A DNA stretch of 64,000 nucleotides from a virus. Below are positions 43,261-61,749 of the stretch, in pieces. Location: positions 43,830 to 107,829 of IMG/VR virus record IMGVR_UViG_3300025883_000003. The stretch is one strand, 5' to 3'. The notes beneath the pieces are model-generated. The model was not told where the DNA came from and ran no database searches. It saw only the letters and a list, made by a program, of their open reading frames with translations. The first letter of the stretch is position 1. Each line of letters opens with the position of its first letter. Position numbers and translations under genes: made by a program.

Positions 43261-46200
43261 GTGGTCATACGCAAAGCTGAGCGATCTAAGTGGCACACCA
43301 ATGCCTCTTCGGGGTTCCCTTCGATGGTCTCGCCCGCCAAGGTTCGCGCTCGACTCGTCGCCGGCAAAGGCGAGCTGCTAGCGCAACAGCTCGCCGCCAA
43401 TCGCATCTTCCGTGAGAACGAAACCACCGAAGACGCGCCGCTTCCCCGGCATATCATCGCCATCGAAGACGTGACGCACGGCTTGGGGCTCGATGCAGCC
43501 GACGAACAAGCGGTTCAGCGCATCATTCTCGATACGAACGCGCACTTCGATCAGACCACGCAGACCCATCGGCTGACATTGGCGCGCGCGAGCTTTGTCA
43601 CGACGCTTCGGGCGATGCCTCATATCAGCTCCGACATTCGCATGGAGCTGACGAAACGGGCCATCGCGTATTGGCGCCGGAACACGCAGACCGACTACGG
43701 CAAACCGCCCACGATCCGCTCGATCGCGGTCAAGAGTGAGCCCGCGCTCGTGATCAAGGCGGCCAAGCGCTTGAACGGCTCCGAGAAGCGCGTCGAAATG
43801 CCGCAGATCATCGCCCAAAAGCTCCCGGCGTTCCTGAAAGAGCTGCGCAAGGACGGCACCAAGTGCAAGCGCAAGAGCTACGACGCCAGCAAGCTCAAAC
43901 CGATGCAAAACAAGCTCGATACGTCCAAAGTTGAGCGGTTGAAGAGCACCCCCGAAGCCCTGAAAAAGCCGATCGTGGTGAGCCATGACGGCTTCATTCT
44001 CGATGGGCACCATCGTTGGGCCGCATGCAAGGCGTTGGGGCAAAAAGTGCCGTGCGTAGAGGTCGCGCTCGACAAAGACGAGCTGCTAGAGCAAGCCCGT
44101 GACTTCGATGGGGCTGAGTTTCGCAAAGCCGGGGCCTACATCGGGCCTAGAGGCGGCAAATGGGCCGATGCGAAGCACACTATCCCCTGGAAAGACCCCG
44201 GCTTAGAGCGCAAACGACGGCTGTTGACGCAGATCGAAGGCAGTCTGACGGCTGCCACGCGCTCCGCGTCCCGATCGCTCGACTCCCGTGACGACGACGC
44301 CATGCGCGCGGCCGGCCATGACGTGCGCAAGGTCCGTGAACGCTTGTCGCGCGTCGCTGGGGAGCACGAGATCCACGCCAAGAGCCCCGGCGCGCTCGGA
44401 AAGCAGTACCGGACGCTCGATAAGCGCATCGCTGGGCTCGAAACGGAGCTGCGGAGCACGCCATCGAAGCAGATGGAAGCCGCGGCGACGAAGACGATCC
44501 GCGCAGAGCTGGCGGCTGACTCGCGTGACGAGCAGTACCGTACGCAAGACGCGGATTTCATTCTTGGCGATGGGTCCGTAGACAAAGCGGCGCTCTACCA
44601 AGAGGCCGGCATGGCGCTCCGCAATCTTCGGATGCTCCCTGAGCGCGCCGATCTCAAGTGGCTCGTCAAGCTCGTCAAAAAAGAGGCGAACCTACACGAG
44701 CGCAACGTCACCAAGCCGCTTCACCGGCAGCCCAAGAACAAGTACCGCAAAGCCGACAAGATCCCCGGCGGGCTCGCCGACAAAAAGAAGCCCTCCGACT
44801 TCGACAAAGCGAAGCTCGAAGCGGGTATCAAAGTTGAAATGGAGCACACGAGCGATCGGTCCATCGCGACTGAGATCGCCATGGATCACTTGACCGAAGA
44901 CGCGGACTACTACGAGAAGCTGAAGACTATCGAGAAGTCATCGAAGCCGCCGCCCGGCTACGTCCTGGCGCCGGGCAGCAAGAAGGGGGCGTACCGCAAG
45001 AAGGTCGCCGGCAAGTGGGACCATTGGTATCCCGACGCTAAGAAGCCCAAGCGCAAGGCCAAGGCCAAGAAAAAGCCCGCTCGCGAGCCGCATATCAACG
45101 GCTGGGCGGGCGTGGTCGGCTCGGAGCTGGGCGACCATCTGCGCGGGATACTCGTGCGCTACGGCAATCTCGAAGCCCTGCAACAAGAGCTGAAGGAAAC
45201 GCTCGACCCGGAGAAGCAAAAGGAGCTGACGCAGGGGATCGCCAACTATCGGGTCAACGAAATGACCGGGATTCCGTCGAAGGCAGAGACGCACAAGCTC
45301 TTGGAGCAGTCCATGAAGCTCCGCACGTTCGATGACGTGCAGAAGTTCACCGAGACCGTGGTGGATCTCGGAGACCACAAGATCCAGGTTATCAACTTGC
45401 TCGGCAACTCGCTTGGCTGGGCCATCCGCGCCCCCGGAGCACCCCCGAAAAAGGGTGACGACGGGTATTCGCAGCACCAAAAGCTCGTCAAGAAGGTCAA
45501 AGCCTTCGAGCAAGACACCTCGTGGCGCCGGCCGAAGAGCACGGACCCGCAAGAAGTGGCCGACACCTACAACTTGGCCATGATCGATATCAACCCGACG
45601 CTCCCTGAGCCTATCCAAACGCACATTACAGGCATGCTCAGCAACGCGTTCGAAGACTTGGCCGACGTGCTGGGTGCGGTGAAGCTCAGCCACGGCTCGC
45701 TTCAGATTCGAGTGACGGCCCAAGAGGCGCTGTACGCTCCCGGCTACGCGTACGGAGCGCAGTACGTGCGCCCCCGGAGCCGCAACCCCGAAGATTGGGA
45801 CCGGGATTGGAACTTCGGCGGCGAAGAAGCGACGCCTTCCATGGGCTCGCACGGGCTCCAAGAGAAGATGGAACAAGCGCCCCCGATGATCCGCATTTCC
45901 ATGGAACGAGCTTCCGCGCTCGCTCATGAGTACGGGCATGCGCTCGATGACGCGACGGCCATCGTCAGCGCCAACCCGGCCATGAGCGAAAAGCACGCCG
46001 ATGAGATTGCGGCCAAGGAAGCGGTGCACATGCTCTTGCTCCAAAGCCCCATGCGGGACCGCGCAGAGCGGGTCGAGCGCAAGCGGGGGCCTAGAGGATA
46101 TTGGGGCTCGCCGGCTGAAATGTGGGCACGCGGTTTCGAGCAGTACGTGCACAAGAAGCTGAACGACAAGGGTCGGTTCAACTCGCTTCTGACGCACCAC

Positions 46201-46812
46201 ACCTATGACGGCCGGGTGGACGATGGGGTTTTCATGGCCCCCAAAGAGTTCGCTCCCATCGAAGCGGCCTTCGACAAGTGGCTCGGCATGGCCAAAGAGC
46301 TGGGGATGCTCGAAAAGGCATTCCGGCTTCTCTTCGGCGACCCGACGCTCGTCGTGAAGGCCCGTTCGATCCTCACGCCGAACATCCAAGTGGGCGAAGC
46401 GCGCGGGGCACCCCGCTTCGACACGCCCCCGATGCCCGACTACCAGAGCATCTATTATCCCCCAGAGAACGCTGACTCGCACAAGCGGGAGCGCGCGCAG
46501 TCGCAGAACCGACGCCGCGCCGATGCGGAGCGTGTGCGAGGCAAGTGGGGCTTTCACGGCAAGGTGATTCCCGACAAGCCCGTGCTCCGGTGGAAGCTCG
46601 ACCGCGAAGAGAGCGAAGATCCCTTCGACCACACCGGGGTCAAGCAAGAGCACAAGCCCCGCAAGAGCCCCAAGCTCATGGCGCGTGCCCGGATCAAGGC
46701 CGGCGCCACTACCTATCCCGAAGAGGGCACGGAGCTTCCGGGCGATGGGAAGCGAAAGCGAAAGCGGAAAAAGAAGAAAAAGCAAGTTAGGCTCACGGCG
46801 AGGAAGCAATGA
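43261..46812 (+). CDS. Polyvalent-type giant protein with ParB-like, DUF5661-like and zincin/LPD1 modules
   Basis: A 1183-residue multidomain protein of the kind described as phage polyvalent proteins, thought to be packaged and injected. From N to C: a helical region (1-235); a ParB/sulfiredoxin-like module (VVSHDGFILDGHHRWAACKA, about 239-260); the repeated linker GAYIGPRGGKWADAKHT (about 290-308); a coiled region; a DUF5661-like module (KIPGGLADKKKPSDFD, then EIAMDHLTED, about 500-555); a degenerate linker KKGAYRKKVAGKWDHWYPD; and a zincin ALAHEYGHALDD (near 890) with an LPD1-like GSPAEMWARGFEQYV (near 950). The C-terminus is highly basic. The start is GTG. Confidence 0.8.
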   Translation: MVIRKAERSKWHTNASSGFPSMVSPAKVRARLVAGKGELLAQQLAANRIFRENETTEDAPLPRHIIAIEDVTHGLGLDAADEQAVQRIILDTNAHFDQTTQTHRLTLARASFVTTLRAMPHISSDIRMELTKRAIAYWRRNTQTDYGKPPTIRSIAVKSEPALVIKAAKRLNGSEKRVEMPQIIAQKLPAFLKELRKDGTKCKRKSYDASKLKPMQNKLDTSKVERLKSTPEALKKPIVVSHDGFILDGHHRWAACKALGQKVPCVEVALDKDELLEQARDFDGAEFRKAGAYIGPRGGKWADAKHTIPWKDPGLERKRRLLTQIEGSLTAATRSASRSLDSRDDDAMRAAGHDVRKVRERLSRVAGEHEIHAKSPGALGKQYRTLDKRIAGLETELRSTPSKQMEAAATKTIRAELAADSRDEQYRTQDADFILGDGSVDKAALYQEAGMALRNLRMLPERADLKWLVKLVKKEANLHERNVTKPLHRQPKNKYRKADKIPGGLADKKKPSDFDKAKLEAGIKVEMEHTSDRSIATEIAMDHLTEDADYYEKLKTIEKSSKPPPGYVLAPGSKKGAYRKKVAGKWDHWYPDAKKPKRKAKAKKKPAREPHINGWAGVVGSELGDHLRGILVRYGNLEALQQELKETLDPEKQKELTQGIANYRVNEMTGIPSKAETHKLLEQSMKLRTFDDVQKFTETVVDLGDHKIQVINLLGNSLGWAIRAPGAPPKKGDDGYSQHQKLVKKVKAFEQDTSWRRPKSTDPQEVADTYNLAMIDINPTLPEPIQTHITGMLSNAFEDLADVLGAVKLSHGSLQIRVTAQEALYAPGYAYGAQYVRPRSRNPEDWDRDWNFGGEEATPSMGSHGLQEKMEQAPPMIRISMERASALAHEYGHALDDATAIVSANPAMSEKHADEIAAKEAVHMLLLQSPMRDRAERVERKRGPRGYWGSPAEMWARGFEQYVHKKLNDKGRFNSLLTHHTYDGRVDDGVFMAPKEFAPIEAAFDKWLGMAKELGMLEKAFRLLFGDPTLVVKARSILTPNIQVGEARGAPRFDTPPMPDYQSIYYPPENADSHKRERAQSQNRRRADAERVRGKWGFHGKVIPDKPVLRWKLDREESEDPFDHTGVKQEHKPRKSPKLMARARIKAGATTYPEEGTELPGDGKRKRKRKKKKKQVRLTARKQ
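44131..44193 (+). repeat. GPRGGKW linker repeat, copy 1
   Basis: Encodes GAYIGPRGGKWADAKHTIPW. The DNA differs from the other copies at many third positions, so the peptide, not the DNA, is conserved. Confidence 0.85.
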
Positions 46813-49800
46813 GGGGTAGACCGCCAATTGGAGACGCGGACGCGCTTCGCGCCGTCATGAACAAGGCTCAAGCCCGGCGGGCTCGTGGTGAGCTGTTGCT
46901 CACCAAGGCCATCTTCTACGGCCCCAAAGGGGGCAAGTGGGCCGACTCCGCCCACACGATCCCGTACAAAGAGCTGAAGGGGCGCCGTAAGGGGGCCAAA
47001 GACGAGCCCAAGGGCCGAAGACAGTCTGGCGTTCAAGAGATCCCGAAGGGCCGTAAGAAGGGCCAGGACGAGCCCGCAAAGGGACGCACCAAGGCCGCTG
47101 AAGATACAGCGGGGCGGGAAAAATCAAGGCCAGAGGATAATGGGAAGCGGCGACCCGGATCGGCCGTCGCGCCCAAGGGGCGCGACAAGGCTCAGCCTGA
47201 AGACAAGGGCAAGCCCAAGGGGACCGAAGAGGCCGCCAAACCAGCCGCTACGCGCGAGTGGGTCAAGGGGGCCGACTACGGGCTCCAAGAGACCGACAAG
47301 CAGCACAAGGGCGAAGACGGCGAGTACACCCCCGTCCGCAAGAAGCTCCACGAGCAAATCTACGCGAAGTTTCTCGACCACGTGCCGACCGTCCCTGAGA
47401 ACCAGAAGCCCACGGCCATCGTCACCATGGGCGGTCCCGCGGCGGGCAAGACCACGCTCGTCAAGCACGTCCAGAGCAACTTCAACGACTTCGCGGTGGT
47501 GAACCCCGATGACGTGAAGGAAGAGCTTCCTGAGTACCAAAAGGGGATCAACCTAGGCGAGAAAGACGGCAAGACCGTCAGCGCGCGCGACGCTGCATTC
47601 CTTGTGCACCAAGAAAGCTCTGACGTAGCCATCGAGATTCAGAAGCTCGCCATCGAGCAACGCAAGAACATCATTCTCGACGGCACCGGCAAGAACGTCG
47701 AGAAGTACCGTAAGAAGATCGCCGATCTCAAAGCGGCCGGCTACCACGTCCAGGTCATCATGCCGCACGTCGACATGAACGAGGCGATCGATCGCGTGGA
47801 AACGCGCGCAGAGAAGACCGGCCGATACGTCCCAGAGGATATCGTGCGCCATGCGCACACACGCATCCCTTCCAACTTCGAAGCCATCGCACGCACTGCC
47901 GATGAGTTCGCACTGTTCAAGTCGGGTCGACCCCCGAAGTCGGTGTGGTCCGGTGGCGCTGGCAAGGGCGACGTGGTGCATGATGCCAACTACGTTCGCG
48001 ATTTTCTACGGTTGGGGAAGCGACTCACAAAAGAGGTAGAAGCAGGCATGCACAAGTCAGAAAACGGCGGCGGCGACAAACCGCCAAGTGTGTCACTCGA
48101 TGACTTGGTAAAGCGCGTTGCGAGCTTCGATGCGCCCGAAGAGGATAAGGACGCGGAGCAGATCCAGGGTGGCGACGGCGATGGCGTATGGTGGCCCGTC
48201 GAAGACTACGAAGACGAGATCCGCGAGCAGATGGACAAGCAAGGCGGCGTGAAAAAGAGCGGTACGTTCACCGTGCCCACCAAGCGCTTCGTCGTGAAGG
48301 GTGGACCGTACATCGGTCCCCGTGGCGGCAAGTGGGCAGACCCGCAGCACAAGATCCCCTATGAGAGCGCGAAGCAGCACCACGCGCGGGTGACCGGGCG
48401 CGGCAAGCGCTCGCTCGGGCCGGGCGAAGAGGTAGGCTTCCCGTGGAAGCGCTACGAAGCGCGGGCCAAGGGCATGAACAACGATCAGCTCGCAGGCGCC
48501 ATTCAGGACGCCCTATCGACGCTGATCCACGCCGATGCGATGGACCGGGAGAGCGGCGGAGACCGGGGCGGGCATTACCGCGATGAGATCAGCGTCTACC
48601 GGAACGAGCAGAAGACGCGCGCGAAGATCACCGAGAAGATGGGGGCGTCGCAGAGCAAGTCGAAAGCGGCCCGCAAGAAAGCGCGCGAGAAGGTCAAAAA
48701 CGCGCTCGTCGCGGAAGGCATGGAGCCTTCCGAAGCCAGCTACATGCTCAAAGAGCGTGCCCAAAAGTCGCCCCAAGACGCTACCGTAACGGCGGCTATC
48801 GGTGCAGACCGTTGGCATGCACTGAAGCTCCAAGGGAACATAGCCGGGGACTTCACCAAGTGGTCGGGTGGCGCGGTCGAGCAAGCGAAAGCCTTCAGCC
48901 AGGATCTTGTGGACTACGGGGTGATCACGGAGAAGGAAGCTCAGAAGCTCGCAGAAGCGAAGCATGGGCTCATGAACCGGAACATCGTCGACGCGCAACT
49001 GGTCATGAAGCAGCACGGTGCTGGCGCGTTTTCAAAGTACAAAGAAACGAAAGAGCCCGCGATTCGCGCCATGGCGTTTGCAGAGCGCGCACTCCGTTTG
49101 GGTGGTGTGAGCAAAGCCAAGGCCAAGGCGGTGGTGCGCAAGCTCCGAAATGAGGCGTACGAGAAGAGCCCCGGCTACTCGATGAAGCTGAAGGAAGTTC
49201 GCAGCATTCTCGGGGACTACGGCTTCGACACCACGAAGTACGTGGCGATCGATGCGACCTATCGGGAGAGCATGAAGTACCGCTCCCGCAAGCCGCAGAC
49301 CAACGGTCCGGTGAAGGACAGTAACCTCGCGAAGCAGCTCTATAACAAGGGGATCAAGCTCGTTCGCAAGAGCAAGCTAGACGACTCGCTGCGCAAGGGT
49401 GGGCCTTACATTGGGCCGCGGGGTGGGAAGTGGGCCGATGCGGCGCACACGATCGCATGGTCGGATGAGAAGCCCGCAGCGCCAAAGGCCAAGGGCGTCG
49501 GCGACGAGATCGCCATGCCGCACACGCTGAGCCCGATGAAGTTCGGCAAAAAGCCTGAGCTTCCCGAAGGGGCGATGAGCACCGATGGGTACGATGCCGC
49601 AGACGTGGTGAACGGCGACGCGCCGTACAAGCCCGGTGACGCGCTGCATCCCGACCACAAGTCGGCAGAGACGGCCTACGTGATCGAAGACTACCCCTAC
49701 GGTCGGCTCCGCACGCAAATGCGCGTGTGGATTGACCGGGACAAGAACGGGCGCGGTCGACTCATGCGCCAGACGCTAGACCCGAAGCGCACCGGCCATT

Positions 49801-50510
49801 GGAACAAGCCCAAGGGCAGCACGTACAGCGATGTAATGGTCGCTGTCTTCAATGAAGACGGGCACATCGGGAACCACGGGGCGAGCTTTTCGTGGCGTGG
49901 CGAGAACACTCTTCGGCCGTACGCGGAGAAGTACGGCGGGCACATGAGCGATGAGCAAAAGCTCGATGCGGCGCTCATGGTCGCCTACGACGAGCTAGGC
50001 GCCAAAGGCATCCCGCGCGACGAAGCCAAAGAGATTGCGTTCAAGCATTGGGCCAAGCAGCGCAAGGCCACGGGCGTTTCCGACGCGCAGCAAGCCAAGG
50101 CGAAAGCCGCCAAGGACGCGAAGAAAAAGAAGGCCGCAGCCAAGGCGGGGCCGCCGACTGGCGCTCCGACGCCTATCAGCGAGCGACTTCGGGCCAAGGG
50201 GCTCCGGTCCACGAGCGAGCTGGGGAAGATGAGCGTCGACGAGATCGACAAGCACTTCGGCGCGATGGAATACTTCGAGTCGAAGGGGATCAGCTCGGCG
50301 TACAAGATGCTCGCGAAGCAGGCCGCCGAAGTGAACCGGAACAAGCTCGCCACGCAGTACAAGCACTTGGCGTCAGCGGTGAACCTAGCCGGCCCCTACA
50401 GCGAGGGTCGGGCCAAAAAGGCAATTCAGAAGTTCCTGAACCATGCCAAGAAGCACGGCAGTGACGCGGAGACTTTGGACAAGAGCTTTGTGATTCGGAG
50501 AGAACAATGA
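46809..50510 (+). CDS. Polyvalent-type giant protein with zeta-toxin-like kinase
   Basis: A 1233-residue protein coupled to its upstream neighbour by ATGA. It starts with a linker copy (FYGPKGGKWADSAHTIPY, about 35-52) and a low-complexity Lys/Gly/Arg/Glu region. A zeta-toxin-like P-loop kinase follows (about 195-400): Walker A MGGPAAGKTT, NPDDVKEELPEY, and a central IILDGTGKNV. Linker copies recur near 497 and 864, separating helical domains. Zeta kinases phosphorylate UDP-GlcNAc or other small molecules; no epsilon-type antitoxin is visible. Helicase or nuclease motifs were not found. Confidence 0.78.
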   Translation: MRGRPPIGDADALRAVMNKAQARRARGELLLTKAIFYGPKGGKWADSAHTIPYKELKGRRKGAKDEPKGRRQSGVQEIPKGRKKGQDEPAKGRTKAAEDTAGREKSRPEDNGKRRPGSAVAPKGRDKAQPEDKGKPKGTEEAAKPAATREWVKGADYGLQETDKQHKGEDGEYTPVRKKLHEQIYAKFLDHVPTVPENQKPTAIVTMGGPAAGKTTLVKHVQSNFNDFAVVNPDDVKEELPEYQKGINLGEKDGKTVSARDAAFLVHQESSDVAIEIQKLAIEQRKNIILDGTGKNVEKYRKKIADLKAAGYHVQVIMPHVDMNEAIDRVETRAEKTGRYVPEDIVRHAHTRIPSNFEAIARTADEFALFKSGRPPKSVWSGGAGKGDVVHDANYVRDFLRLGKRLTKEVEAGMHKSENGGGDKPPSVSLDDLVKRVASFDAPEEDKDAEQIQGGDGDGVWWPVEDYEDEIREQMDKQGGVKKSGTFTVPTKRFVVKGGPYIGPRGGKWADPQHKIPYESAKQHHARVTGRGKRSLGPGEEVGFPWKRYEARAKGMNNDQLAGAIQDALSTLIHADAMDRESGGDRGGHYRDEISVYRNEQKTRAKITEKMGASQSKSKAARKKAREKVKNALVAEGMEPSEASYMLKERAQKSPQDATVTAAIGADRWHALKLQGNIAGDFTKWSGGAVEQAKAFSQDLVDYGVITEKEAQKLAEAKHGLMNRNIVDAQLVMKQHGAGAFSKYKETKEPAIRAMAFAERALRLGGVSKAKAKAVVRKLRNEAYEKSPGYSMKLKEVRSILGDYGFDTTKYVAIDATYRESMKYRSRKPQTNGPVKDSNLAKQLYNKGIKLVRKSKLDDSLRKGGPYIGPRGGKWADAAHTIAWSDEKPAAPKAKGVGDEIAMPHTLSPMKFGKKPELPEGAMSTDGYDAADVVNGDAPYKPGDALHPDHKSAETAYVIEDYPYGRLRTQMRVWIDRDKNGRGRLMRQTLDPKRTGHWNKPKGSTYSDVMVAVFNEDGHIGNHGASFSWRGENTLRPYAEKYGGHMSDEQKLDAALMVAYDELGAKGIPRDEAKEIAFKHWAKQRKATGVSDAQQAKAKAAKDAKKKKAAAKAGPPTGAPTPISERLRAKGLRSTSELGKMSVDEIDKHFGAMEYFESKGISSAYKMLAKQAAEVNRNKLATQYKHLASAVNLAGPYSEGRAKKAIQKFLNHAKKHGSDAETLDKSFVIRREQ
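46911..46968 (+). repeat. GPRGGKW linker repeat, copy 2 (degenerate)
   Basis: Encodes IFYGPKGGKWADSAHTIPY near the start of the second giant protein; Arg is replaced by Lys and GPYI by FY. Confidence 0.8.
48298..48360 (+). repeat. GPRGGKW linker repeat, copy 3
   Basis: Encodes GGPYIGPRGGKWADPQHKIP after the kinase module of the second giant protein. Confidence 0.85.
49398..49460 (+). repeat. GPRGGKW linker repeat, copy 4
   Basis: Encodes GGPYIGPRGGKWADAAHTIA in the C-terminal third of the second giant protein. Confidence 0.85.
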
Positions 50511-53479
50511 TGGATGCAATCGAAAGCCTAGTCCGCATGGTCAAGGGTGGTCCCTACATCGGTCCGCGCGGGGGGAAGTGGGCAGACGCCAAGCACACGG
50601 TCGCGTGGAAAGACGACGCTGCGCCTAAGAAAAAGGCCAAGGCCAACCGCAAAGAGAGCGGGGCGCTGGCGGCCAAGCACGCGAGCGCGATCACCACTGC
50701 GATGAGTGCGCTCCACGATCCCAACAATAAGACCAAAGACAAGACCCCATCCGGGTACGTCGAAGTGCTCCGCGACGCCATGAACGACGCGCCCAAGATG
50801 ACTGGCGCAGACCGCAAGCGGCTCGCGTCGACGATCACACGGCACCTCAAGGCCGCTCGCGTCCACAACCGGAACATGAGCCAGCGCCAGTACGGCAAGC
50901 AGCCCAAGGATGAGGCACGGCGCGTATCGGGTACGGACGTGGCCAACGCCACGCGTCTTCGCGACAACTTGGAAGTCACGGCCCGCAAGCTCCGTGAGCA
51001 CGGCCAAGACCCTTCGAAGAAGGTGAAGCAGCAAAAGAAGAGCGCCACCAAGTACGCGCAAGATCAGTTCAAACACTACGAGCGCAAGATCAAGGGCGCG
51101 ACGCGCGACGGTATCCGCGCGAGCTACGAGCGCGACATGCGCGAAGTGCTTTCCAACTACAAAGAGCGCTTCGGCGAGGATCTACCGGGCTCCGAAGGGT
51201 GGACCGCTACTGAGAAGGCTCGCGAGACCGCCCAAGGTGGTCCCGACATTCCAGCCAAAGAGTTCAACGCCTTGATCGCCACACCCGAAGGGCAGAAGAT
51301 CAAGACGACCATTCAGGCGGATCTCAAACGCAGGCTCGATGCAGGGGCCGACCGTGAGAAGACGGTAGCCATCGCAGAGACCGCGTTCCGCAACCGCATT
51401 CACAAGCTGTTCTACAACGCCAAGCAGGAAAAAGAGACGGGCCAGCAACGGCTCGCACTCTCGAAAGAGGCCATGGGATCACTCAGCAAAGGCGGTCCCT
51501 ACATTGGGCCACGCGGTGGCAAATGGGCGGATGCCAAGCACACAATCTCGTGGGACGACCGGAACAAGAAACCCCGAAAGAAGCGCGCCAAGAGCAAGGC
51601 GAAGGCGAAGAACAAGGGTGTGGACGGCATGGTTCAGCCCGCGACTGGCAATAGCCGGGGCGAGCCCCTTGCGGCCGTACCGGGACGCATCTACGGCGTT
51701 TGGGCGCAGCACGTCGACGAACAGCGCGCGAGCACCGGACATTCGTTGACCCAGACGGTCACACATGTACCTAGCGGGCTCAGCCTTCAAAGGTTCACGT
51801 CGCAGCGGAAGGCTCGCGCCTTTGCGCAGTTCATGGATGAAAAGGTCGGCGACGTAATGACCGATCTGAAGATCAACGAGTCGCCGAACACCATGGACAA
51901 CGCGGAGCACAAGGCGGCGTACGCGAAGATTCGTGCAGCGATGGACGACTACGAAGTGGCGGAGAAGGCCAAGAGCGATGCCGCACGCGAGAAGCGAGAA
52001 GCCAAGAAGGAAGCCGTCCGTGCTGAGAAGCATAAGAAGTCGCGATTCTCAGACGCGCAACGGCAGTACAAGGTGGGCTCCGATGAAGCGCGAGCCGCGG
52101 TGGCTCTCGACGAAAACGGCGACCACGACGGCGCCGCCAAGAAGTACGCGCGTGCGGCCGATCTCATGAACCTCGCAGCGGAAGCAGCGGGCGACGCTGG
52201 GGATAAGAACGCTCAGCGCGCAGCGAACAACCGCTACGAGAAGTACCATGGGCTCTCTAAAGACGCGACAAAGAAGGCCGCCGACAAGCGCGCCGCAGCG
52301 AACCGCGCGGAAGAAGCCGCAGCCGACAAGGCGCGCGAGGCCGGCAAGGTGGTCAAGCCCGGCAAGGTCGAAGGTCACCGGATGACCGCGGACGGCAAGC
52401 ACATCGCAGACACCGGGTTCATGAACCGAACCGGGGGCGCACTGCCCGGCTTCAGCATGGAGCACATGGGCTTCGGGGAGTTCTACCTCAAAGGCCCCGG
52501 CGGGCGCATCGATTTCGCGCGGGGCGGCCCTGAGTTCGAAGGGCAGTCGGGCCGCAGCCACTACATGTACGATGACGCAGGCGGCGAGCTAGTGGAGAAG
52601 CTACTCGATGCCATGGCCGTCAAAAAGAGCGGCGACGCGATCGACGGACTGGAAAGATTCACGGGGGGAGAGTACATGGCGAAGAGCAAGGGAGACGTGA
52701 TCCAAGAGTTGATCGCGAAAATGGAAGCCGGCAATATCTCGGAAGAGTTGATCGGCAAGATGAAGGCCGTTGGCATTCAGGATGACGTGATCCAACAGCT
52801 CATCGGCAAGTGCAACACGCGCAAGAGCCACTTCGAGCCGTCGCTCAAAAAGGGGCTCTACGCCTTCGAAGTGGATGGTAAGGGGCGCAAGCTCTCTGAC
52901 AACTTGCTCCCGCAGTATCTTGCGGCGTTTGTCGAGCAAGCCTTCGAGCACGAGAAGCAAGAGTGCGAGCACATGGAGAACAAGCCGGCCGGCTACACCG
53001 ATCAGCTCACTTTCTACGCGCAGCGGATCATGAATGAGCTGGTCATGTACATGCGGAACAACGCCGATCTCACGGCGGCGGGCAAGGATGCGACGAGTGA
53101 GACCATTGCCGCCATCCTTCGCAACTCCGGGCTCATTCAGCCCGACGTGAGCGGCTTCGACAATCCAGAGGGCAACGGGTGGAGCGGCGAAGCATCGCTC
53201 GTGCGTTCCGGCGCATCGCCGTGGCTCCAAGACGACCCGGCCGTGCGTCCCGCGGCGCAGATGGCCGAACACCACAAGCAAGCCTCGTTCATCGATGACA
53301 CCGCTGATCCCGCTATCGCGCTCCGCAAATCGAACGTGGTCAAGCGGCAGCGCGCATTTACCGCCCCAGAACCAGAGTTCGTGGTAAAGGGGGACGGAGG
53401 TTGTCCGATTCACGGCTACGGGGATCTCACCAAGATGCAGAATCTTTCGCTCCCGATGGGCAAGTGCACGTGTAACTAA
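50507..53479 (+). CDS. Polyvalent-type giant protein with two GPRGGKW linkers
   Basis: A 990-residue protein coupled by ATGA to the previous one. Linker copies are at residues 13-32 and 328-347. Between them are long helices. Later regions include KVEGHRMTADGKHIADTGF, two related helical units around 735-770 (VIQELIAKMEAGN and VIQQLIGKC), and a C-terminal end with CPIHGYG and CTC that could bind zinc. No catalytic motif was identified. It immediately precedes the portal gene, consistent with a virion-delivered protein. Confidence 0.7.
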   Translation: MMDAIESLVRMVKGGPYIGPRGGKWADAKHTVAWKDDAAPKKKAKANRKESGALAAKHASAITTAMSALHDPNNKTKDKTPSGYVEVLRDAMNDAPKMTGADRKRLASTITRHLKAARVHNRNMSQRQYGKQPKDEARRVSGTDVANATRLRDNLEVTARKLREHGQDPSKKVKQQKKSATKYAQDQFKHYERKIKGATRDGIRASYERDMREVLSNYKERFGEDLPGSEGWTATEKARETAQGGPDIPAKEFNALIATPEGQKIKTTIQADLKRRLDAGADREKTVAIAETAFRNRIHKLFYNAKQEKETGQQRLALSKEAMGSLSKGGPYIGPRGGKWADAKHTISWDDRNKKPRKKRAKSKAKAKNKGVDGMVQPATGNSRGEPLAAVPGRIYGVWAQHVDEQRASTGHSLTQTVTHVPSGLSLQRFTSQRKARAFAQFMDEKVGDVMTDLKINESPNTMDNAEHKAAYAKIRAAMDDYEVAEKAKSDAAREKREAKKEAVRAEKHKKSRFSDAQRQYKVGSDEARAAVALDENGDHDGAAKKYARAADLMNLAAEAAGDAGDKNAQRAANNRYEKYHGLSKDATKKAADKRAAANRAEEAAADKAREAGKVVKPGKVEGHRMTADGKHIADTGFMNRTGGALPGFSMEHMGFGEFYLKGPGGRIDFARGGPEFEGQSGRSHYMYDDAGGELVEKLLDAMAVKKSGDAIDGLERFTGGEYMAKSKGDVIQELIAKMEAGNISEELIGKMKAVGIQDDVIQQLIGKCNTRKSHFEPSLKKGLYAFEVDGKGRKLSDNLLPQYLAAFVEQAFEHEKQECEHMENKPAGYTDQLTFYAQRIMNELVMYMRNNADLTAAGKDATSETIAAILRNSGLIQPDVSGFDNPEGNGWSGEASLVRSGASPWLQDDPAVRPAAQMAEHHKQASFIDDTADPAIALRKSNVVKRQRAFTAPEPEFVVKGDGGCPIHGYGDLTKMQNLSLPMGKCTCN
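50543..50605 (+). repeat. GPRGGKW linker repeat, copy 5
   Basis: Encodes GGPYIGPRGGKWADAKHTVA at the very start of the third giant protein, after only about 13 residues. Confidence 0.85.
51490..51552 (+). repeat. GPRGGKW linker repeat, copy 6
   Basis: Encodes GGPYIGPRGGKWADAKHTIS in the first third of the third giant protein. Confidence 0.85.
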
Positions 53480-55263
53480 TGGGGCTCTTAGACAATATCC
53501 GAACGGCGGGGTCGGGCGCTCTTGACGGTGCCCTACAGTCATTGCGCAAGGCTGACGAGCTAGGTGACGACGTACCCTTCGACGCCATGCAAGACGCGCT
53601 CATGAAGGGCGGGCTCGCGCAGCCCACCGACGAGAAGCCGCGTGGTCTCTTTCATGATCCCTACAGCGTCATGGATTGGGGCGGCTGGCGGCAGCGTCCC
53701 AGCATTCTCACGTACGATACGCTCCGCCAGATGAGCATATCGAACACGGTGATCGCGGCCATTATCCAGACCCGCGTGAACCAGCTCAGCCAGTTCGCCG
53801 TGCCGCAGCAAGGCAACTACGACCGGGGCTACCGCATTATCCTTCGGGACCGTCGCGACAAGAGTAAGGTCATGACGAAGGCGCAGCAATCGAAGGCCAC
53901 GGAGCTAGAGCGCATGCTCGAATCGACCGGGTACATGCTCCCGAACGAGAAGCCCTACGACCGCGATTCGTTCCGCGGTTTCTTGAAGAAAATCGTGCGT
54001 GATTGCCTCACCTACGACCAAATCTGCATCGAGAAGGTGCGCGACCGCAAAGGCCGGATCAGCCGCTTCATCGCGCTGCCCACGGAGACCATTCGCCCGG
54101 CCGTCGCAGACGTGGAGCACATGGACCCCGAAGAGCGTCGCAACCGCGTCGCCTACGTCCAGGTCTACGAAGACTCTGTGATCGCGGAGTTCGGACCCGA
54201 CGATCTGGCGTGGAGCATCATGAACCCACGCTCCGACCTACGCGTGAACGGCTTCGGGTTCTCGCCCATCGAACAGCTCATCCGCATGATCACGAGCTGG
54301 CTCTACGGCTTCGAATACAATACGAAGTTCTTCTCGCAGGGGTCCGCAATCAAGGGCGTCATCAACGTCAAGGGCGCCATCCCCGACCGTCAGCTCCGCG
54401 CGTTCCGACGCATGTGGTACTCGATGGTCACGGGCGTTCAAAACTCGTGGAAGACCCCGATTCTGAATGCGGAAGACCTTCAGTGGGTCTCGCTCCATTC
54501 GACGAACCGCGAAATGGAGTTCGGCCAATGGCTCGACTTCCTAACCAAGAGCATCTGTTCGGTCTACGGGATCGACCCGGTAGAGATCGGCTTCATCTAC
54601 GGCTCGGGCGGGGGCGGCTCATCGCTCTTCGAATCCCGGCCGAACCAACACGAAGTGCAAGAGTCGAAGGATAAGGGGCTCCGGCCGCTCATCGAGCACA
54701 TCGAAGACACGATCAACGAACACATCGTTTGGGAGCTAGAGCCCGACTTCGAGTTCGCGTTCACCGGCTTCGACGCCAAAGCCGAAGACAAAGAGCGCGA
54801 AGCACGGATGCTCGAAGTCACCAAGGTCAAGACCGTCGACGAGATCCGCGCTGAAATGGATGAAGACCCGCTGCCCGATGGGCTCGGGGAGATCATTCTC
54901 GACCCTGTGTTCTTTCAATGGGTACAGAGCAAGACCGGCATGGATGAGGGTGAAGGCGGCGAGTTCGGCGAAGAGGGCGACGACGACATGCCCGACTGGT
55001 TCAAGACCGCTTCGGGGGAAGACAACGAGCCCAGCGATGACGACAAGGCCAAGGGCGACGACAAGGCCAAGGATGGCCCGCCCGGCGTCAAGCAGAAGGC
55101 TTCGGGCAAAGACCTACCTTCGAGTGTGAAGGGCGGTAAGGATGGCCAGAAAGAGGCCCTAGCGGCGTCCATGGACGCGCTACGCACCGTCGACGTGTTG
55201 CGGAAGAGCCAAAGGGTGCACAATGGCCGCCAGACGATCGATGTAGAGATTGTGGGGGAATGA
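53479..55263 (+). CDS. Portal protein
   Basis: HK97/SPP1-class portal that forms the dodecameric DNA gate. Typical segments: MSISNTVIAAIIQTRVNQLS, RGFLKKIVRDCLTYDQICIE, FIALPTETIRPA, GFGFSPIEQLIRMITSWLYG, and CSVYGIDPVEIGF with GGGGSSLFESRPNQ. The last 110 residues are an acidic Asp/Lys/Gly-rich extension beyond the usual fold. It starts in a TAATG overlap with the last giant protein gene and is followed by structural genes in the same operon. Confidence 0.93.
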   Translation: MGLLDNIRTAGSGALDGALQSLRKADELGDDVPFDAMQDALMKGGLAQPTDEKPRGLFHDPYSVMDWGGWRQRPSILTYDTLRQMSISNTVIAAIIQTRVNQLSQFAVPQQGNYDRGYRIILRDRRDKSKVMTKAQQSKATELERMLESTGYMLPNEKPYDRDSFRGFLKKIVRDCLTYDQICIEKVRDRKGRISRFIALPTETIRPAVADVEHMDPEERRNRVAYVQVYEDSVIAEFGPDDLAWSIMNPRSDLRVNGFGFSPIEQLIRMITSWLYGFEYNTKFFSQGSAIKGVINVKGAIPDRQLRAFRRMWYSMVTGVQNSWKTPILNAEDLQWVSLHSTNREMEFGQWLDFLTKSICSVYGIDPVEIGFIYGSGGGGSSLFESRPNQHEVQESKDKGLRPLIEHIEDTINEHIVWELEPDFEFAFTGFDAKAEDKEREARMLEVTKVKTVDEIRAEMDEDPLPDGLGEIILDPVFFQWVQSKTGMDEGEGGEFGEEGDDDMPDWFKTASGEDNEPSDDDKAKGDDKAKDGPPGVKQKASGKDLPSSVKGGKDGQKEALAASMDALRTVDVLRKSQRVHNGRQTIDVEIVGE

Positions 55264-56019: not shown

Positions 56020-57768
56020 ATGGCGTCGCCAGCCAAGATACGAGTTCAAGCGCCAGCCGACCTAGATCCGATTCAGATCGCCCAAGCGGTAGTCGGAAAC
56101 GGACTTTTGGTGAAGGCGGAGCCTGTGCCGCGCTACGGCAAGCGCACCTTCAAGCGCTACAAGCCCATGGTGACGAGCGTGGTGCGCTTCGAGAAGGCGT
56201 ACGACGCCCAGCTCGTGGCCATGATGAAGGCGCTCCGCAAGCACATCGAGAAGACCACGGGGACGCGCATCGCCAAGGCCGACACCTACCGGCCCTTGCT
56301 CACGCCCGGCGAGCTATTCGAGCTGCAACAGATCATCGAAGACTACCATCGGGCGTTCATCGCCGGGACCGTGGGACCGGAGACCTTGCCGCCGGGCCAG
56401 GTCAAGCGCTTGATCGACGCCGGTATCCTTCCCGAAGACTTGCAGCACACGTTCGTGCCGACCGATAAGGTGCTCCCGCCCGCCGCGATGGACGCCATCG
56501 AAGACGCCTACCGCTACGGACACGTGCTCTCCGCGTCGCGCACGTATGAAGAGCGCAAGCGCACGTACGGGATCACCTACGACCAGTTCGTACGCACGTA
56601 CGCCCCGAAGGTGCCGAACGGCCCGAACGAGAAGCACGCCATCGCATGGGCCAAGCACTCCGCGGCCACGGAGATCAAGGGGCTCGGGAACAAGGTCGCG
56701 GCGGATTTCAGCACCATCGCCATCGAAGCGGACAAGGATCTGAGGCGCCGCTACGAAGGTGTCATTCGTGATTCAGTCTCGGAGAACATCCAACGCCAAG
56801 AGACCGTGCAACAGCTCGCGAGCGACTTGGGCCACAAGACCGGGGACTGGTCCCGCGATTTCAAACGCATTGCGGCCACCGAGAAGCACAAGGCGATGCA
56901 AGAGGGCATCGTCACAGGGCTCGTGGAGCGCTACGGCGATCCCGACGATATCCGGGTCGCCAAGATGCCGAACCCCGATGCGTGCCCGCATTGCCTTCGG
57001 CTGCACAAGCACCCCGATGGCCGGCTCAGGATATTCAAGCTCAGCGAGCTAGTGGAGAATGGCAGTAACGTCGGCCGCAAAGCCGCCGCTTGGCAAGCCA
57101 CGGTTGGCCCTGTGCATCCATGGTGCGGCTGCGATCTCATCCATGTGCCCGAAGGCTGGGGCTTCGATGAGAGCGGCGACATGCTTCCCGAAGCGCTACT
57201 GCGCAGCGATTGGCTCGCATGGGATCTGCGCAAGAGCGCAACCGCCGCCCCCATGCTGAGCTACGGGGAGAGCCGGCCCGACAAGGGCGTGGTGATCCGG
57301 GTCGGCGACCCTGAAGTGCACGCTGAGATCCAGATGGTGATCGACAAGACGCCGCCGGAGATATTCGATCGGAAGGTCGGGATCACGTTCATTACGACCG
57401 ATATCCCCCGCGCGCAGAACCCGCTCGAAGAGCACGACTACGCGTATTGGAGCGGCAATGAGATCCGGGTCTCGCAGACCCTTCCCGCGGAGCGCATCGC
57501 ACGGGTGCTCCCCCACGAGATCGGGCACTCCCTGAACGTCCACCTCATGCACGAATTTGGGAACATCGAAGCGGTCAAAGAATGGCACGCCAAGCTCGAC
57601 GCGATCAGCCAAGATGAAGGCTACGTGAGCGACTACGCGAAGCGCGAGCCCATCGAGAACGCCGCCGAAGTCACGATGAACTATCTGTACCACCGCCAAC
57701 GGCTTATGCTTCGATGGCCCCGGCAGTTCGCATTCGTGCACAAAGCGTATCGAAAAATCTGGTCATGA
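56020..57768 (+). CDS. MuF-like head morphogenesis protein with C-terminal zincin
   Basis: A 582-residue fusion. The MuF domain (about 210-375) has the diagnostic CPHC (322-325) and VHPWCGC (365-371) cluster. A C-terminal metalloprotease-like domain (about 420-582) has LPHEIGHSLN, with zinc ligands His499 and His503 and catalytic Glu500, and a downstream ENAAEVTMNYLY that can supply the third ligand. MuF proteins are minor head proteins; C-terminal effector domains on MuF are known to be delivered to the host. A few capsids may therefore carry this protease. Confidence 0.88.
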   Translation: MASPAKIRVQAPADLDPIQIAQAVVGNGLLVKAEPVPRYGKRTFKRYKPMVTSVVRFEKAYDAQLVAMMKALRKHIEKTTGTRIAKADTYRPLLTPGELFELQQIIEDYHRAFIAGTVGPETLPPGQVKRLIDAGILPEDLQHTFVPTDKVLPPAAMDAIEDAYRYGHVLSASRTYEERKRTYGITYDQFVRTYAPKVPNGPNEKHAIAWAKHSAATEIKGLGNKVAADFSTIAIEADKDLRRRYEGVIRDSVSENIQRQETVQQLASDLGHKTGDWSRDFKRIAATEKHKAMQEGIVTGLVERYGDPDDIRVAKMPNPDACPHCLRLHKHPDGRLRIFKLSELVENGSNVGRKAAAWQATVGPVHPWCGCDLIHVPEGWGFDESGDMLPEALLRSDWLAWDLRKSATAAPMLSYGESRPDKGVVIRVGDPEVHAEIQMVIDKTPPEIFDRKVGITFITTDIPRAQNPLEEHDYAYWSGNEIRVSQTLPAERIARVLPHEIGHSLNVHLMHEFGNIEAVKEWHAKLDAISQDEGYVSDYAKREPIENAAEVTMNYLYHRQRLMLRWPRQFAFVHKAYRKIWS

Positions 57769-58116: not shown

Positions 58117-58857
58117 TTGGGAGCAACACCGTTCAAATTCGATATCGCGGTCGAGTGCTTTGAAAAGGCGGGTGCCGATCCCTCCAAAGAGCGCCGCATC
58201 GGGGGCATCGTGTCGACGGGTGCGATCGACCGCCAAGGCGAGCGCCTGATCCAGACGGGGCTCGACTTTTCGCCGTTCTTGAAGGGCGGCTGGTTCAACG
58301 ACAATCACGATAGCAGCACCGAGGCGTTGGTCGGATATCCCGACAAATGCGAGCTGCGCGAGCTGCCCGATGGGGAGCAAGGTTGGTACGTCGAAGGTTA
58401 TCTTCTGAAGGGCCACCAACGCGCCGACAACCTTTGGAACATTGCCCAAGCGTTGCAGAAGAGCGACCGCCGGCTCGGGTTCAGTGTCGAAGGCCAGATC
58501 GAAGAGCGCGACGCGACGAACCCGACCGTGGTTCGCAAAGCGTCCGTGCGCGAGGTCGCGATCACACGCTGCCCCGTGAACAACGGCACAGGGCTCGATG
58601 TGCTCGCGAAGTCGCTGAGCGCTGGCAGCGCCGTGGGCGACCCCGGCACCGCGCCCGGTGAAGGCTTCCCGCTTCGGACCGAAAGTCTCGAAGGCGGCAA
58701 GAAAAAGAAGAAAAAGAAGCGCCTCTACAAAGCATCTGAGGCGATGGAAAGACTTCGCGCAATCCGGCCAAACCTGGACGGCGCGCTAGCAGAGAAAATC
58801 GTGGCGTACGCGATGAAGTGGCACGCCGAAACGGAGGATATCGAAAATGCCGGATGA
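58117..58857 (+). CDS. Prohead protease (HK97 U35-like) with C-terminal extension
   Basis: Capsid maturation protease of the herpesvirus-assemblin-like fold. NDNHDSS gives the likely catalytic His64 and LGFSVEG the likely Ser123; REVAITRCPVNNGTGLDVL matches the strand that ends the family domain. The extension holds a 24-residue segment (169-192) almost identical to one in the major capsid protein, then a Lys-run and a helical end. The start is TTG 58117 with a strong GGGGGG ribosome site. XkdF-like is the nearest alternative description. Confidence 0.8.
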   Translation: MGATPFKFDIAVECFEKAGADPSKERRIGGIVSTGAIDRQGERLIQTGLDFSPFLKGGWFNDNHDSSTEALVGYPDKCELRELPDGEQGWYVEGYLLKGHQRADNLWNIAQALQKSDRRLGFSVEGQIEERDATNPTVVRKASVREVAITRCPVNNGTGLDVLAKSLSAGSAVGDPGTAPGEGFPLRTESLEGGKKKKKKKRLYKASEAMERLRAIRPNLDGALAEKIVAYAMKWHAETEDIENAG

Positions 58858-59773
58858 ACAAACATCGGGACCGCAGGTAACGGATGACGGCCTTGGGAAA
58901 GCTCTCGATGAGCTTCTGAAGGCGGCCGACGCTACGAGCTTGGCCAAGGGCGCAACGCACTCGGGCAAGGGTTCCAACTCAGTGGAAACCAGTCCCCACG
59001 TCGACGAAGACGGCACCACGGCGGGCTCGCTCGCCGGAGCCGGCGACGTAGGCGGAATCGATACGCTCATGGTCGCCAAGATGAGCGCTGCGGGCATTCC
59101 CGCCGGTATCATCAACGCCTTCGCAGCCTTCATGAGCGACGACGAAGAAGAAGAGGACGAGGACGAGGACGACGACAAGGAGAAGAAGGAAAACCCCTTC
59201 GACAAGAGCCTTGAGCCTTCTTTCCAGAAGTCTATGGACTCGTTCCGAGAAGACTCGGTTATCGATGACACCATCGATGTATCGCCGTTCCTTGAGGCGC
59301 TGACGGCCCGCACGGCCGATCAGCTCGATGCGATTCGCAAGAGCGCGGGCCACTTCGAAGGCCAGCAAAACCATGTGAATCAGAAGCTCGCTGCGGCACT
59401 CCACCAAATCGGTGGCTTGCTCAAGAGCCAGACCGGCGTGATTCAGGCTCTCGGGCAGCGCTTGAATCTAGTCGAGCGCACTCCGGCACCGCAGAAGGGA
59501 GCGACCCAGCTCTCCGGCGCGCAGCCGCTTCACAAAGCAATTCCGGGCGAGCTTGGCCAGGGCGGCAAGGATCTTCGCAAGAGCGAGATTCTGTCAACGC
59601 TCACGTACATGAACTTGGAAAAGGGCATGCACGAGATCAACGGCCAGCGCACATCCGAACTAGTCGGGCTGTTCGAAGGGGGCAACGTCATCGATGAGAA
59701 GACCGTCGGTGCCGTTCAGAGCTTCCTCGCCACCCACCCAAATGAGGCGGACGCGGCTCGGCAGTACGCCTAA
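58847..59773 (+). CDS. Putative scaffold or head assembly protein
   Basis: A 308-residue protein between protease and capsid genes, the usual scaffold position. It has an extremely acidic run (DDEEEEDEDEDDD, about 98-112), a helical coiled-coil middle (FEGQQNHVNQKLAAALHQIG) and a C-terminal helical domain. GGAGGATATC precedes the ATG, which overlaps the protease stop. No catalytic motif is present. Confidence 0.65.
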   Translation: MPDEQTSGPQVTDDGLGKALDELLKAADATSLAKGATHSGKGSNSVETSPHVDEDGTTAGSLAGAGDVGGIDTLMVAKMSAAGIPAGIINAFAAFMSDDEEEEDEDEDDDKEKKENPFDKSLEPSFQKSMDSFREDSVIDDTIDVSPFLEALTARTADQLDAIRKSAGHFEGQQNHVNQKLAAALHQIGGLLKSQTGVIQALGQRLNLVERTPAPQKGATQLSGAQPLHKAIPGELGQGGKDLRKSEILSTLTYMNLEKGMHEINGQRTSELVGLFEGGNVIDEKTVGAVQSFLATHPNEADAARQYA

Positions 59774-59809: not shown

Positions 59810-61222
59810 ATGAGTGTTGGATCATTTGTTTCGGCGCGAGACTACCGCGATTACGGCGGATGGGGCTCTTCATCGCCGGACGAACTAGCAGAGCTTCGCA
59901 AGGCGCTTGTAGCCGGCAGCGACGTGAACGACCCAGGCGTTGCGCCCGGTGTCGGATTTCCGTTGAGGACGGAATCACTCGAAGCGCAGCTCAAGAACCT
60001 GACGTTCGAAATGTCAGAAATCAAGTTGTTCCGCAGCATCGCCAAGGTGCCAGCGAGCAATACGGTCGAGGAATTCAACCGTTTGGTGAGCTACAGCCGT
60101 TCGGGCAGTCGCCGCTTCAACATGGGTTGGATGAGTGAGGGAGCGCTTCCAGAGGAAGAAGACAGCACCTACGAACGTGTGACCGTTCTCACGAAGTATC
60201 TCGGCGTTGTGGGCCGGGTCACACATGTGGCCAACACAATCCGGGCTGCTCACGGGAACGTGATCGCGCTCGAAACCATGAACAAGACGATGGATCTTCT
60301 CAAGAATCTTGAGAACGCCCTCTTCTTCGGAAACTCCGCGCTCATTCCTGAGCAGTTGGATGGCTTGGAAAAGCTGATCAGCGACGGTGCTCCCGATAAC
60401 GTGGTCGACCTTCGCGGTGCACCGCTCACTGAGAGCGCCATGAACGACATGCTGCTTCAGATTCGTCAGAACTACGGCATGGCGACCGATGCCTACTTCA
60501 GCGCCGGGGCCTTCTCGGATCTCGCGAAGCAGGTCTACGATCGTCAGCGGTTCGCACTGGCGCCAGCACCGGGCACGCTCGGTACGACCGTCACGGCTTT
60601 CCAAGGCCAACACGGCAAGATCAATCTCCACGACCACGTGTTCTTCGAGGACGAGCAGTCCGCGTTGACCGGCGGTCTTGGCGATGCGTCGAAGGCGCCG
60701 CTCGTTCCGACGATCACCGTGGCTCCGGCCGCGGCAGCCAACGCAGCTTCGCAGTTCGTTCTGGCAGACGCCGGCACGTACATCTACACGGTCGTGGGCG
60801 GGAACAAGTTCGGGCTCAGCCCGTCGCTCGACTCGGCTTCGGTCGTAGTTGCAGCGGGCGATCAGGTCACCTTCACGGTCGGCGACGGCGGTCAAGGAAC
60901 CACGTTCTACGAAATCTACCGCAGCGATGTGGGCGGCGCGGCTTCGACCGCGAAGCTCATGACTCGTGTCGCGCGCACTGGCGCAACGCAGGTCATTACG
61001 GATAACAACGATGACATTCCGGGGACCACCAAGGGCTTCGTCTTGCAGCAAAACCAGCGCTCAATGAGCTGGGCTCAGCTCTTGCCGATGACCCGCGTGC
61101 CACTTGCAACCATCGATACGAGCATAAGGTGGGCGCAGGTAGTATATGGTGCGATAAAGCTCTACACGCCCGCACGTAACATCGTGGTCAAGAATATCGG
61201 CCGCGAACCGGGTAGCCTCTAA
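59810..61222 (+). CDS. Major capsid protein (HK97 fold) with inserted Ig/Fn3-like domain
   Basis: A 470-residue coat protein. The N-terminal arm (1-60) ends in the 24-residue segment AGSDVNDPGVAPGVGF... (35-58) shared with the prohead protease. Core segments include NTVEEFNRLVSYSRSGS, LGVVGRVTHVAN and LENALFFGN. About residues 302-400 form a beta-sandwich insertion (GTYIYTVVGGNKFGLSPS, TTFYEIYRSD) like Fn3 or Ig domains on other capsids. The last 50 residues return to the core (SIRWAQVVYGAIKLYTPA). AGAGAGGATT precedes the ATG. Confidence 0.9.
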   Translation: MSVGSFVSARDYRDYGGWGSSSPDELAELRKALVAGSDVNDPGVAPGVGFPLRTESLEAQLKNLTFEMSEIKLFRSIAKVPASNTVEEFNRLVSYSRSGSRRFNMGWMSEGALPEEEDSTYERVTVLTKYLGVVGRVTHVANTIRAAHGNVIALETMNKTMDLLKNLENALFFGNSALIPEQLDGLEKLISDGAPDNVVDLRGAPLTESAMNDMLLQIRQNYGMATDAYFSAGAFSDLAKQVYDRQRFALAPAPGTLGTTVTAFQGQHGKINLHDHVFFEDEQSALTGGLGDASKAPLVPTITVAPAAAANAASQFVLADAGTYIYTVVGGNKFGLSPSLDSASVVVAAGDQVTFTVGDGGQGTTFYEIYRSDVGGAASTAKLMTRVARTGATQVITDNNDDIPGTTKGFVLQQNQRSMSWAQLLPMTRVPLATIDTSIRWAQVVYGAIKLYTPARNIVVKNIGREPGSL

Positions 61223-61286: not shown

Positions 61287-61311
61287 CTACTTTTTGGAGG
61301 GAAAAAGGACC

Positions 61312-61749
61312 ATGAAGATCAAGAATGAGAACATGGCAGGCACCGAAATGGGCTTGCGATACGGCGACGGCACCGTGACCGGGGACGAGAACGGGATCTT
61401 CGACGTACCCGCCAAGGATGCCGAATTCCTTCTGAGCACACCGGGGTGGAGCAAGCTCAAAAAGGGCTCTCCCTTGAGCGGAGCGAGCACGCACCCCTCA
61501 TTGGCCCCAGCACCCGACCCAGCACCCGACGAGCCTGAGCCGGCGCCTGAGACGGCCCCAGCGGACGATGGCGGGGGCGATGAAGGGGACGACGGCGAGG
61601 ATGCGCCCGAAGGCCCTGATCTCGAAGCCATGACCAAGGCGGAGCTTTTGGCGTGCGCGGCGGAGTACGGCGTCGAAGACGTAGACTCGTACATGCGCAA
61701 AGACGATATCAAGGCAGCGCTCGAAGCCGCGCTTTTTGAGGGGGAGTAA
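61312..61749 (+). CDS. Acidic protein with C-terminal SAP/HeH-like domain
   Basis: A 145-residue protein from ATG 61312. A beta-rich start is followed by a Pro/Asp/Glu-rich linker and a helix-extended-helix C-terminus (MTKAELLACAAEYGVED, then RKDDIKAALEAAL). HeH/SAP domains bind DNA or the Rho N-terminal type of partner. The position after the capsid gene suggests a head completion or neck protein. Confidence 0.7.
   Translation: MKIKNENMAGTEMGLRYGDGTVTGDENGIFDVPAKDAEFLLSTPGWSKLKKGSPLSGASTHPSLAPAPDPAPDEPEPAPETAPADDGGGDEGDDGEDAPEGPDLEAMTKAELLACAAEYGVEDVDSYMRKDDIKAALEAALFEGE

Follow-up and report, generated by a model that had tools for sequence, protein, structure and literature searches.

Phage polyvalent proteins, multidomain giants encoded beside virion genes, are predicted to be injected (Iyer et al. 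2017, PMC5512222). The internal proteins of T4 enter the prohead core, and the prohead protease cuts them at a short site close to the capsid targeting sequence, a short peptide that lies N-terminal to the cut and is removed (PMC9026906). The P1 DarA/DdrB proteins are head internal and injected; DarA is cut N-terminally by the P1 prohead protease, and its loop 102-116, a few tens of residues past the removed part, touches the inner surface of the hexon (PMC12810830). In SPN3US/phiKZ-type phages, many injected head proteins are prohead protease substrates, cut at the consensus AXE with removal of N-terminal propeptides, and no retained tag is described in the parts of that source covered here (PMC10052503). 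HK97 gp5 is cut at K103/S104 (PMC10275583).

Here, we describe a viral locus whose giant genes carry a repeated 20-residue peptide directly behind a predicted protease site, phi-x-K-[AGS]. Like polyvalent proteins, the tagged giants combine several unrelated activities in one polypeptide, are encoded among virion structural genes, and have the same set of ParB-like, InPase, ART, RadC, zeta kinase, LPD, and DarA/DdrB domains; in the parts of the polyvalent protein paper covered here, neither a repeated tag nor a prohead protease site common to several modules was found (PMC5512222). The giants would resemble T4 internal proteins in entering the prohead core and being cut at a short site near a short peptide, but here the conserved peptide lies on the C-terminal side of the cut, where it would stay on the product, and a single polypeptide can have several copies, often internal, which departs from the T4 type. 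The DarA_C and ddrB-ParB domains of P1 DarA/Hdf/DdrB also occur in tagged giants, whereas in P1 the Dar proteins are separate, and a GPRGGKWAD tag has not been described for them (PMC12810830). With SPN3US/phiKZ, as far as the covered parts of that source go, the locus shares a short consensus site in many head proteins, but the sites differ. SPO1 has the same order of portal, protease, scaffold, and major capsid protein (MCP), with homologous portal and MCP. HK97, SPO1, and Kayvirus have the same phi-x-K/[AS] at the MCP N terminus (a slash marks the cut), but their isolate records gave no tag match. As far as sequence can tell, the giants resemble HK97/Herelleviridae-type substrates in having a capsid-protein-type site before the tags and a phage-encoded protease. 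What is new relative to known protease-processed, head-packaged phage cargo is the retained N-terminal tag.

Tag copies in the window and their spread

The window (64,000 nucleotides, positions 43,830 to 107,829 of IMG/VR record IMGVR_UViG_3300025883_000003) contains six copies of (K)GGPYIGPRGGKWADxxHTIPW (tag 1) on the + strand across three adjacent giant open reading frames (ORFs), with cores at 44134-44193, 46911-46970, 48306-48365, 49404-49463, 50552-50611, and 51497-51556, all where a first-pass annotation had placed them; no seventh copy was found elsewhere in the complete 107.8-kb virus record. Pairwise DNA identity among the copies is 58-78%, and of the 10-15 codons that encode identical residues, 4-10 differ; conservation is thus at the peptide level, and a recent DNA repeat is ruled out as their origin. 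The many synonymous differences fit the selection on the peptide that the annotation had claimed, and its location of the giants beside portal and MuF is correct: they lie directly upstream of portal, MuF, protease, scaffold, and MCP. Its 20-residue motif stands, but not its extent, as the conserved unit is longer and begins with the upstream phi-x-K-[AGS], present directly before all six copies (FRK, LTK, VVK, LRK, MVK, and LSK, then A or G).

Giant polyvalent protein 1 (1183 aa; 43261..46812, +) contains a ParB-like module, tag 1, DUF5661, a different tag, a HEYGH zincin-like motif, and LPD1. The predicted site FRK/A (K289; 44119..44130, +) precedes tag copy 1 (44128..44196, +; AGAYIGPRGGKWADAKHTIPWKD), and a second predicted site, IEK/S (K559), stands with the different tag-like segment SSKPPPGYVLAPGSKKGAYRKKVAGKWDHWYP (44929..45033, +). 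Giant polyvalent protein 2 (1233 aa; 46809..50510, +) has a zeta-toxin/P-loop kinase at residues 192-364, two unknown modules, and three tags, namely, site LTK/A (K33) with copy 2 (AIFYGPKGGKWADSAHTIPYK; 46899..46970, +), VVK/G (K497) with copy 3 (48291..48365, +), and LRK/G (K863) with copy 4 (49389..49463, +). Giant protein 3 (990 aa; 50507..53479, +) has no known domain and two tags, the first of them 13 residues from its start (MVK/G, K13, with copy 5, 50537..50611, +; LSK/G, K328, with copy 6, 51482..51556, +).

Scanned for the peptide pattern [RK]GGKWAD, 2.9 million IMG/VR contigs yielded 116 confirmed stretches, and a profile search of these loci, the kind of search that the annotation had proposed across phage proteins, found 134 distinct copies in independent viral contigs (at most nine per contig), which puts the tag far beyond chance. 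The consensus, site included, is [LIV]-x-K-[AGS]-(G)-G-P-[YF]-I-G-P-R-G-G-K-W-A-D-x-x-H-T-I-P-W-[K]-[E]. Homologs of the window portal were present in 20 of 20 long tagged contigs tested (36-94% identity) and of the SPO1-type capsid protein in 19 of the 20; judged by these homologies, the tag marks one phage head lineage. Among 84,980 bacterial and archaeal species genomes, only two matched: a 4.4-kb contig from a Zixibacteria metagenome-assembled genome (MAG), on which a MuF homolog is encoded, and the Myxococcales chromosome CP070713, with a prophage-like cluster whose portal is 43% identical to that of the window. As no other bacterial chromosome in this set had a tagged copy, the latter is a host lead. 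The cluster (L092 3-11117, in this Myxococcales MAG chromosome) includes a 1534-aa giant, the portal, a tagged 858-aa protein, and a MuF protein.

Searches of 50,697 isolate phage records (tblastn; 24-, 37-, and 39-residue queries) gave no match to tag 1 or to the second tag family described below, while a 41-residue SPO1 query used as a positive control worked. Pfam searches with 65 tag sequences (E up to 10) returned a single chance hit, DUF1972, and Pfam and PHROG scans of the giants gave no match over the tag, so that the motif does not, by these scans, belong to a known enzyme domain. A resemblance of the tag to the PBCV basic adaptor was unsupported by the same Pfam scan of 65 tags. No paper containing GPRGGKW, IGPRGGK, or PRGGKWAD was found in a literature search, in agreement with the annotation, which knew of no published role. 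The tag element is real, widespread, and undescribed.

A shared site in giants and head proteins

The strict site phi-x-K-[AGS] stands 5-10 residues upstream of the GPRGG core in 122 of the 134 distinct copies and is absent before the other 12, counts that come from related sequences and are not independent events. Its rate in random 12-residue windows of the same proteins is 7.4%, and the spacing from site to core is 6 or 7 residues in 94 of the 122. Site and tag, read from these alignments, form one compound element.

The same site, without the tag, is present in the capsid protein, scaffold, protease, portal, and MuF protein. The gene order in the window is giants, portal, small protein, MuF-type protein, protease, scaffold, and capsid protein. 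The portal protein (53479..55263, +; 38% identical to the SPO1 portal) has sites SLRK/A, LMK/G, and VLRK/S, and the MuF-type head protein (56020..57768, +), with a C-terminal HEIGH peptidase-like domain, has site LRK/S at 57226-57237. The head maturation (prohead) protease P0004 (58117..58857, +; phrog_1028, E = 2e-43) has invariant H64 and S123, and its Pfam S78 match lies below the gathering score; its own site, LAK165/S (58603-58614), falls at the end of the catalytic part and is conserved in 28 of 30. The putative scaffold (58847..59773, +) lies in the same position as in SPO1. The MCP (SU10_MCP/SPO1 gp6.1 type; 59810..61222, +) has a single phi-x-K-[AGS], the N-terminal ELRK31/A (59894-59905). 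It is followed directly by a small protein (61294-61749) with a C-terminal Rho_N-like segment (E, 3e-4).

Observed versus expected sites in the window are 10 versus 1.2 for the scaffold, 7 versus 1.5 for the protease, 6 versus 1.8 for the MuF protein, and 5 versus 1.9 for the portal. Together, nine head-module genes have 55 sites (25.4 ± 4.9 expected), against 79 in the 96 remaining genes (63 ± 8 expected). SPO1 gives 11 versus 1.3 for its scaffold and 8 versus 1.5 for its protease; the Kayvirus scaffold is likewise rich in the site, and the scaffolds of most relatives carry 8-17 copies. All 20 capsid proteins compared (31-100% identical, including SPO1) have the site near the N terminus, typically as VDxLNK/ALTAGQ. 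Locus L099 (3-1421) has a single 473-aa ORF that joins protease and scaffold and contains 17 predicted cut sites.

Known cuts anchor this site. The HK97 cut reads TFNK/SLG in the sequence record and fits phi-x-K/S, as does EDVVK24/S25FQT in the capsid protein of the Staphylococcus Kayvirus, where deposited chain 9row (439 aa) is offset by exactly 24 from the 463-aa chain 5lii; the loss of exactly 24 N-terminal residues points to a depositors' mature chain that starts at S25. Listeria Cps has DALK/S at the same place, with A replacing the large hydrophobic residue. No experimentally mapped SPO1 cut was found in a literature search. From these comparisons, phi-x-K-[AGS] very probably marks where the head maturation protease cuts, and its presence in capsid protein, scaffold, and protease, with the HK97 and Kayvirus anchors, argues that the giants, too, are very probably substrates of the prohead protease. 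Outside tag 1, 90 tagged ORFs have 581 sites (400 ± 18 expected), and as chance sites are common in these K-rich giants, a single site there proves little.

Behind their predicted cuts, the protease C-terminal part (58597-58704, about residues 160-196; LAKSLSAGSAVGDPGTAPGEGFPLRTESLE) and the capsid protein N-arm (59888-59995, residues 27-62; LRKALVAGSDVNDPGVAPGVGFPLRTESLE) are homologous (E, about 1e-8), each sitting just behind the cut; the segment is possibly a shared scaffold- or shell-binding segment.

Tag placement, module boundaries, and other tags

At least 108 aa follow the last tag in every one of the 70 ORFs whose 3' end is complete, and successive tags are 88 to 1813 aa apart. The tag can also stand 10-40 aa from the gene start, usually after a short leader that ends in the site (MNK/AQKGPFIG in L050); the gene in L080 apparently starts MVGPYIGPKGGKW (M-V-GPYIGPKGGKW), with no site before the tag. 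By this placement, the tag belongs to the N-terminal part of modules, and since it lies downstream of phi-x-K, a cut would leave it at the new N terminus of the downstream module.

Orthologs differ by modules that are bracketed by sites, and the sites are used as module exchange boundaries. The MuF protein of L017-L021 equals that of the window up to WDLRK, continues with GPYIGPRGGKWADAQHKIPW and a ParB-like module ending GLKK/GE, and then resumes; this cassette of tag 1 and ParB-like module is inserted exactly at the window MuF site LRK/S, and a second site, LKK/G, closes the insert. Other relatives have an InPase domain directly after the post-MuF site. The ParB-like module of giant 1, between LVIK/A and FRK/A, is missing at the first tag from the near relative L007. 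Across all tagged giants, a site stands no more than 12 aa from 38% of homology segment ends (16 ± 1.5% at random) and from 24% of segment starts (17 ± 1.7% at random), while four control motifs stayed near background (highest, 9.3% versus 7.2 ± 1.2%).

Pfam domains in the tagged giants include zeta kinase, LPD1 with HEYGH, DUF5661, InPase, RadC, phosphoribosyltransferase, ddrB-ParB, DarA_C, SAM lyase, ART-PolyVal, and SNF2 helicase. A site without tag 1 precedes many modules, InPase among them, so some cargo does without the tag. Cyanophage PSS2 and Bacteroides phage DAC19 share the zeta kinase module, and no tag was seen in the PSS2 protein that contains it. The SNF2-type helicase modules seem to be interrupted: Pfam places Hint and intein-splicing domains inside the helicase of L066 (1852-7170), and the modules of L062 (1264-7206) and L012 (10260-12107) diverge at a shared GDEMGLGKA point. 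A module starting LGKGDDGxAFxVGDKVVKVSTTVP is conserved in 11 loci (including L010, L016, L025, L035, L056, L079, and L092), has no Pfam name in the proteins scanned, and resembles a kinase-type glycine-rich loop.

Clustering of post-site sequence lacking tag 1 gave a second family, [GH]KYIRRVPxxxGKxxYRYYY, in which 39 of 42 members are preceded by the site. This family, unrelated in sequence to tag 1, also occurs in MuF-like and smaller proteins, at loci that include L010 474, L013 500, L035 952, L049 280, and L050 4811-5587. Smaller groups after sites are GSRGGKIIGHTSSGKPIYA and KPPPGY..P..KKG.YRKK..GKWDHWYP, the latter present in window giant 1 after IEK/S. These other short tags thus appear to follow the same site-then-tag rule as tag 1.

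Proposed role of the tag

The reading that we favor, with moderate confidence, is that the element is a prohead protease site with a retained 20-residue tag and that the giants are cargo cut into tagged modules that are docked by the tag. The giants, polyvalent cargo made next to the portal, would go into the prohead along with the scaffold and the protease. The S78-type protease, which would also trim the capsid protein, the scaffold, and itself, would cut them at phi-x-K/[AGS] and release modules (zeta kinase, ParB-like, DarA-like, InPase, RadC, SAM lyase, ART, and others), each keeping GP[YF]IGPRGGKWADxxHTIPW(KE) as its new N terminus. The exposed tag would dock the module to a conserved inner head surface (the portal or the lining of the capsid), so that it is retained and then ejected in order together with the DNA. 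Cleavage of the giants is well supported; for the tag, a packaging or docking signal is our best guess, and its service after the cut as an address for docking or ejection is a plausible but tentative proposal, against which we count the near invariance of the tag in phages whose capsid proteins have diverged to 31% identity.

The interpretation of the first-pass annotation is, as a whole, partly supported. Its picture of a multimodule cargo with a common handling signal fits well. Its suggestion of a cleavage site is very probably right as to cleavage, but the site consists of the four residues that precede the motif and is not the motif itself. Its small docking fold fared badly: AlphaFold2 on 65 aligned tags gave no autonomous mini-fold (pLDDT, 63; pTM, 0.17; no secondary structure). 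In the modeled MuF protein of L017 (22 sequences), pLDDT is <50 over residues 396-429, with site and tag, and over residues 567-589, with the second boundary, and the flanking regions are better modeled, although low model confidence alone is not proof of disorder. Site and tag may form an exposed cleavable stretch, with a peptide that folds only on binding.

Such a stretch, predicted to be unstructured and so accessible, would also suit a tag that acts as an exosite, recruiting the prohead protease to low-copy cargo with no role after the cut, and the near-constant spacing from site to tag (6 or 7 residues in most copies) points the same way. We consider this unlikely, because the site stands in capsid protein, scaffold, and protease with no tag behind it, L080 apparently has a tag at its start without a site, and unrelated tag families follow the same site. 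Somewhat less likely again is that the prohead protease leaves the giants uncut, with the tag docking the intact protein or with embedded zincin-like metallopeptidases doing the processing. Giant 1 does have HEYGH with LPD1 and the MuF protein HEIGH, and autoprocessing by embedded metallopeptidases is proposed in the covered parts of Iyer et al. (2017, PMC5512222); yet the pre-tag site is the one in capsid protein, scaffold, and serine protease and matches the HK97 and Kayvirus cuts, and zincins would leave the site common to MCP and scaffold unexplained. A mere structural linker or a DNA-level recombination target for module swaps would account for module ends that coincide with sites and insertions bracketed by them, but is very improbable given the low DNA identity and many synonymous changes among copies, a peptide that persists in phages with about 40% identity between their portals, and a near-invariant G-P-x-G-G-x-W-x-D-x-x-H that a linker would not need.

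Extending the favored reading of cut and docked modules, we propose, more tentatively than the address function itself, a plug-in cargo system in which interchangeable effector modules, carried in giant polyproteins with junctions of head protease site and address tag, are released in the prohead, and the address directs docking and ejection. Unrelated tags (GPRGGKWAD, KYIRRVP...YRYYY, and possibly others) may address different places or stages.

To our knowledge, how proteins are chosen to be packed in the head and injected is poorly understood outside T4 and P1. Here, sequence comparison would extend the lysine-type head protease site known from HK97 to cargo proteins. As the sequence marks where each cargo piece begins, candidate modules can be cut out and listed; the site-plus-tag rule could list hundreds of candidate injected modules, many without a known domain, and these could be tested singly as host takeover or antidefense factors. 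If the tag loads cargo, it would be a short portable peptide for placing proteins in a phage head, one that stays on after maturation.
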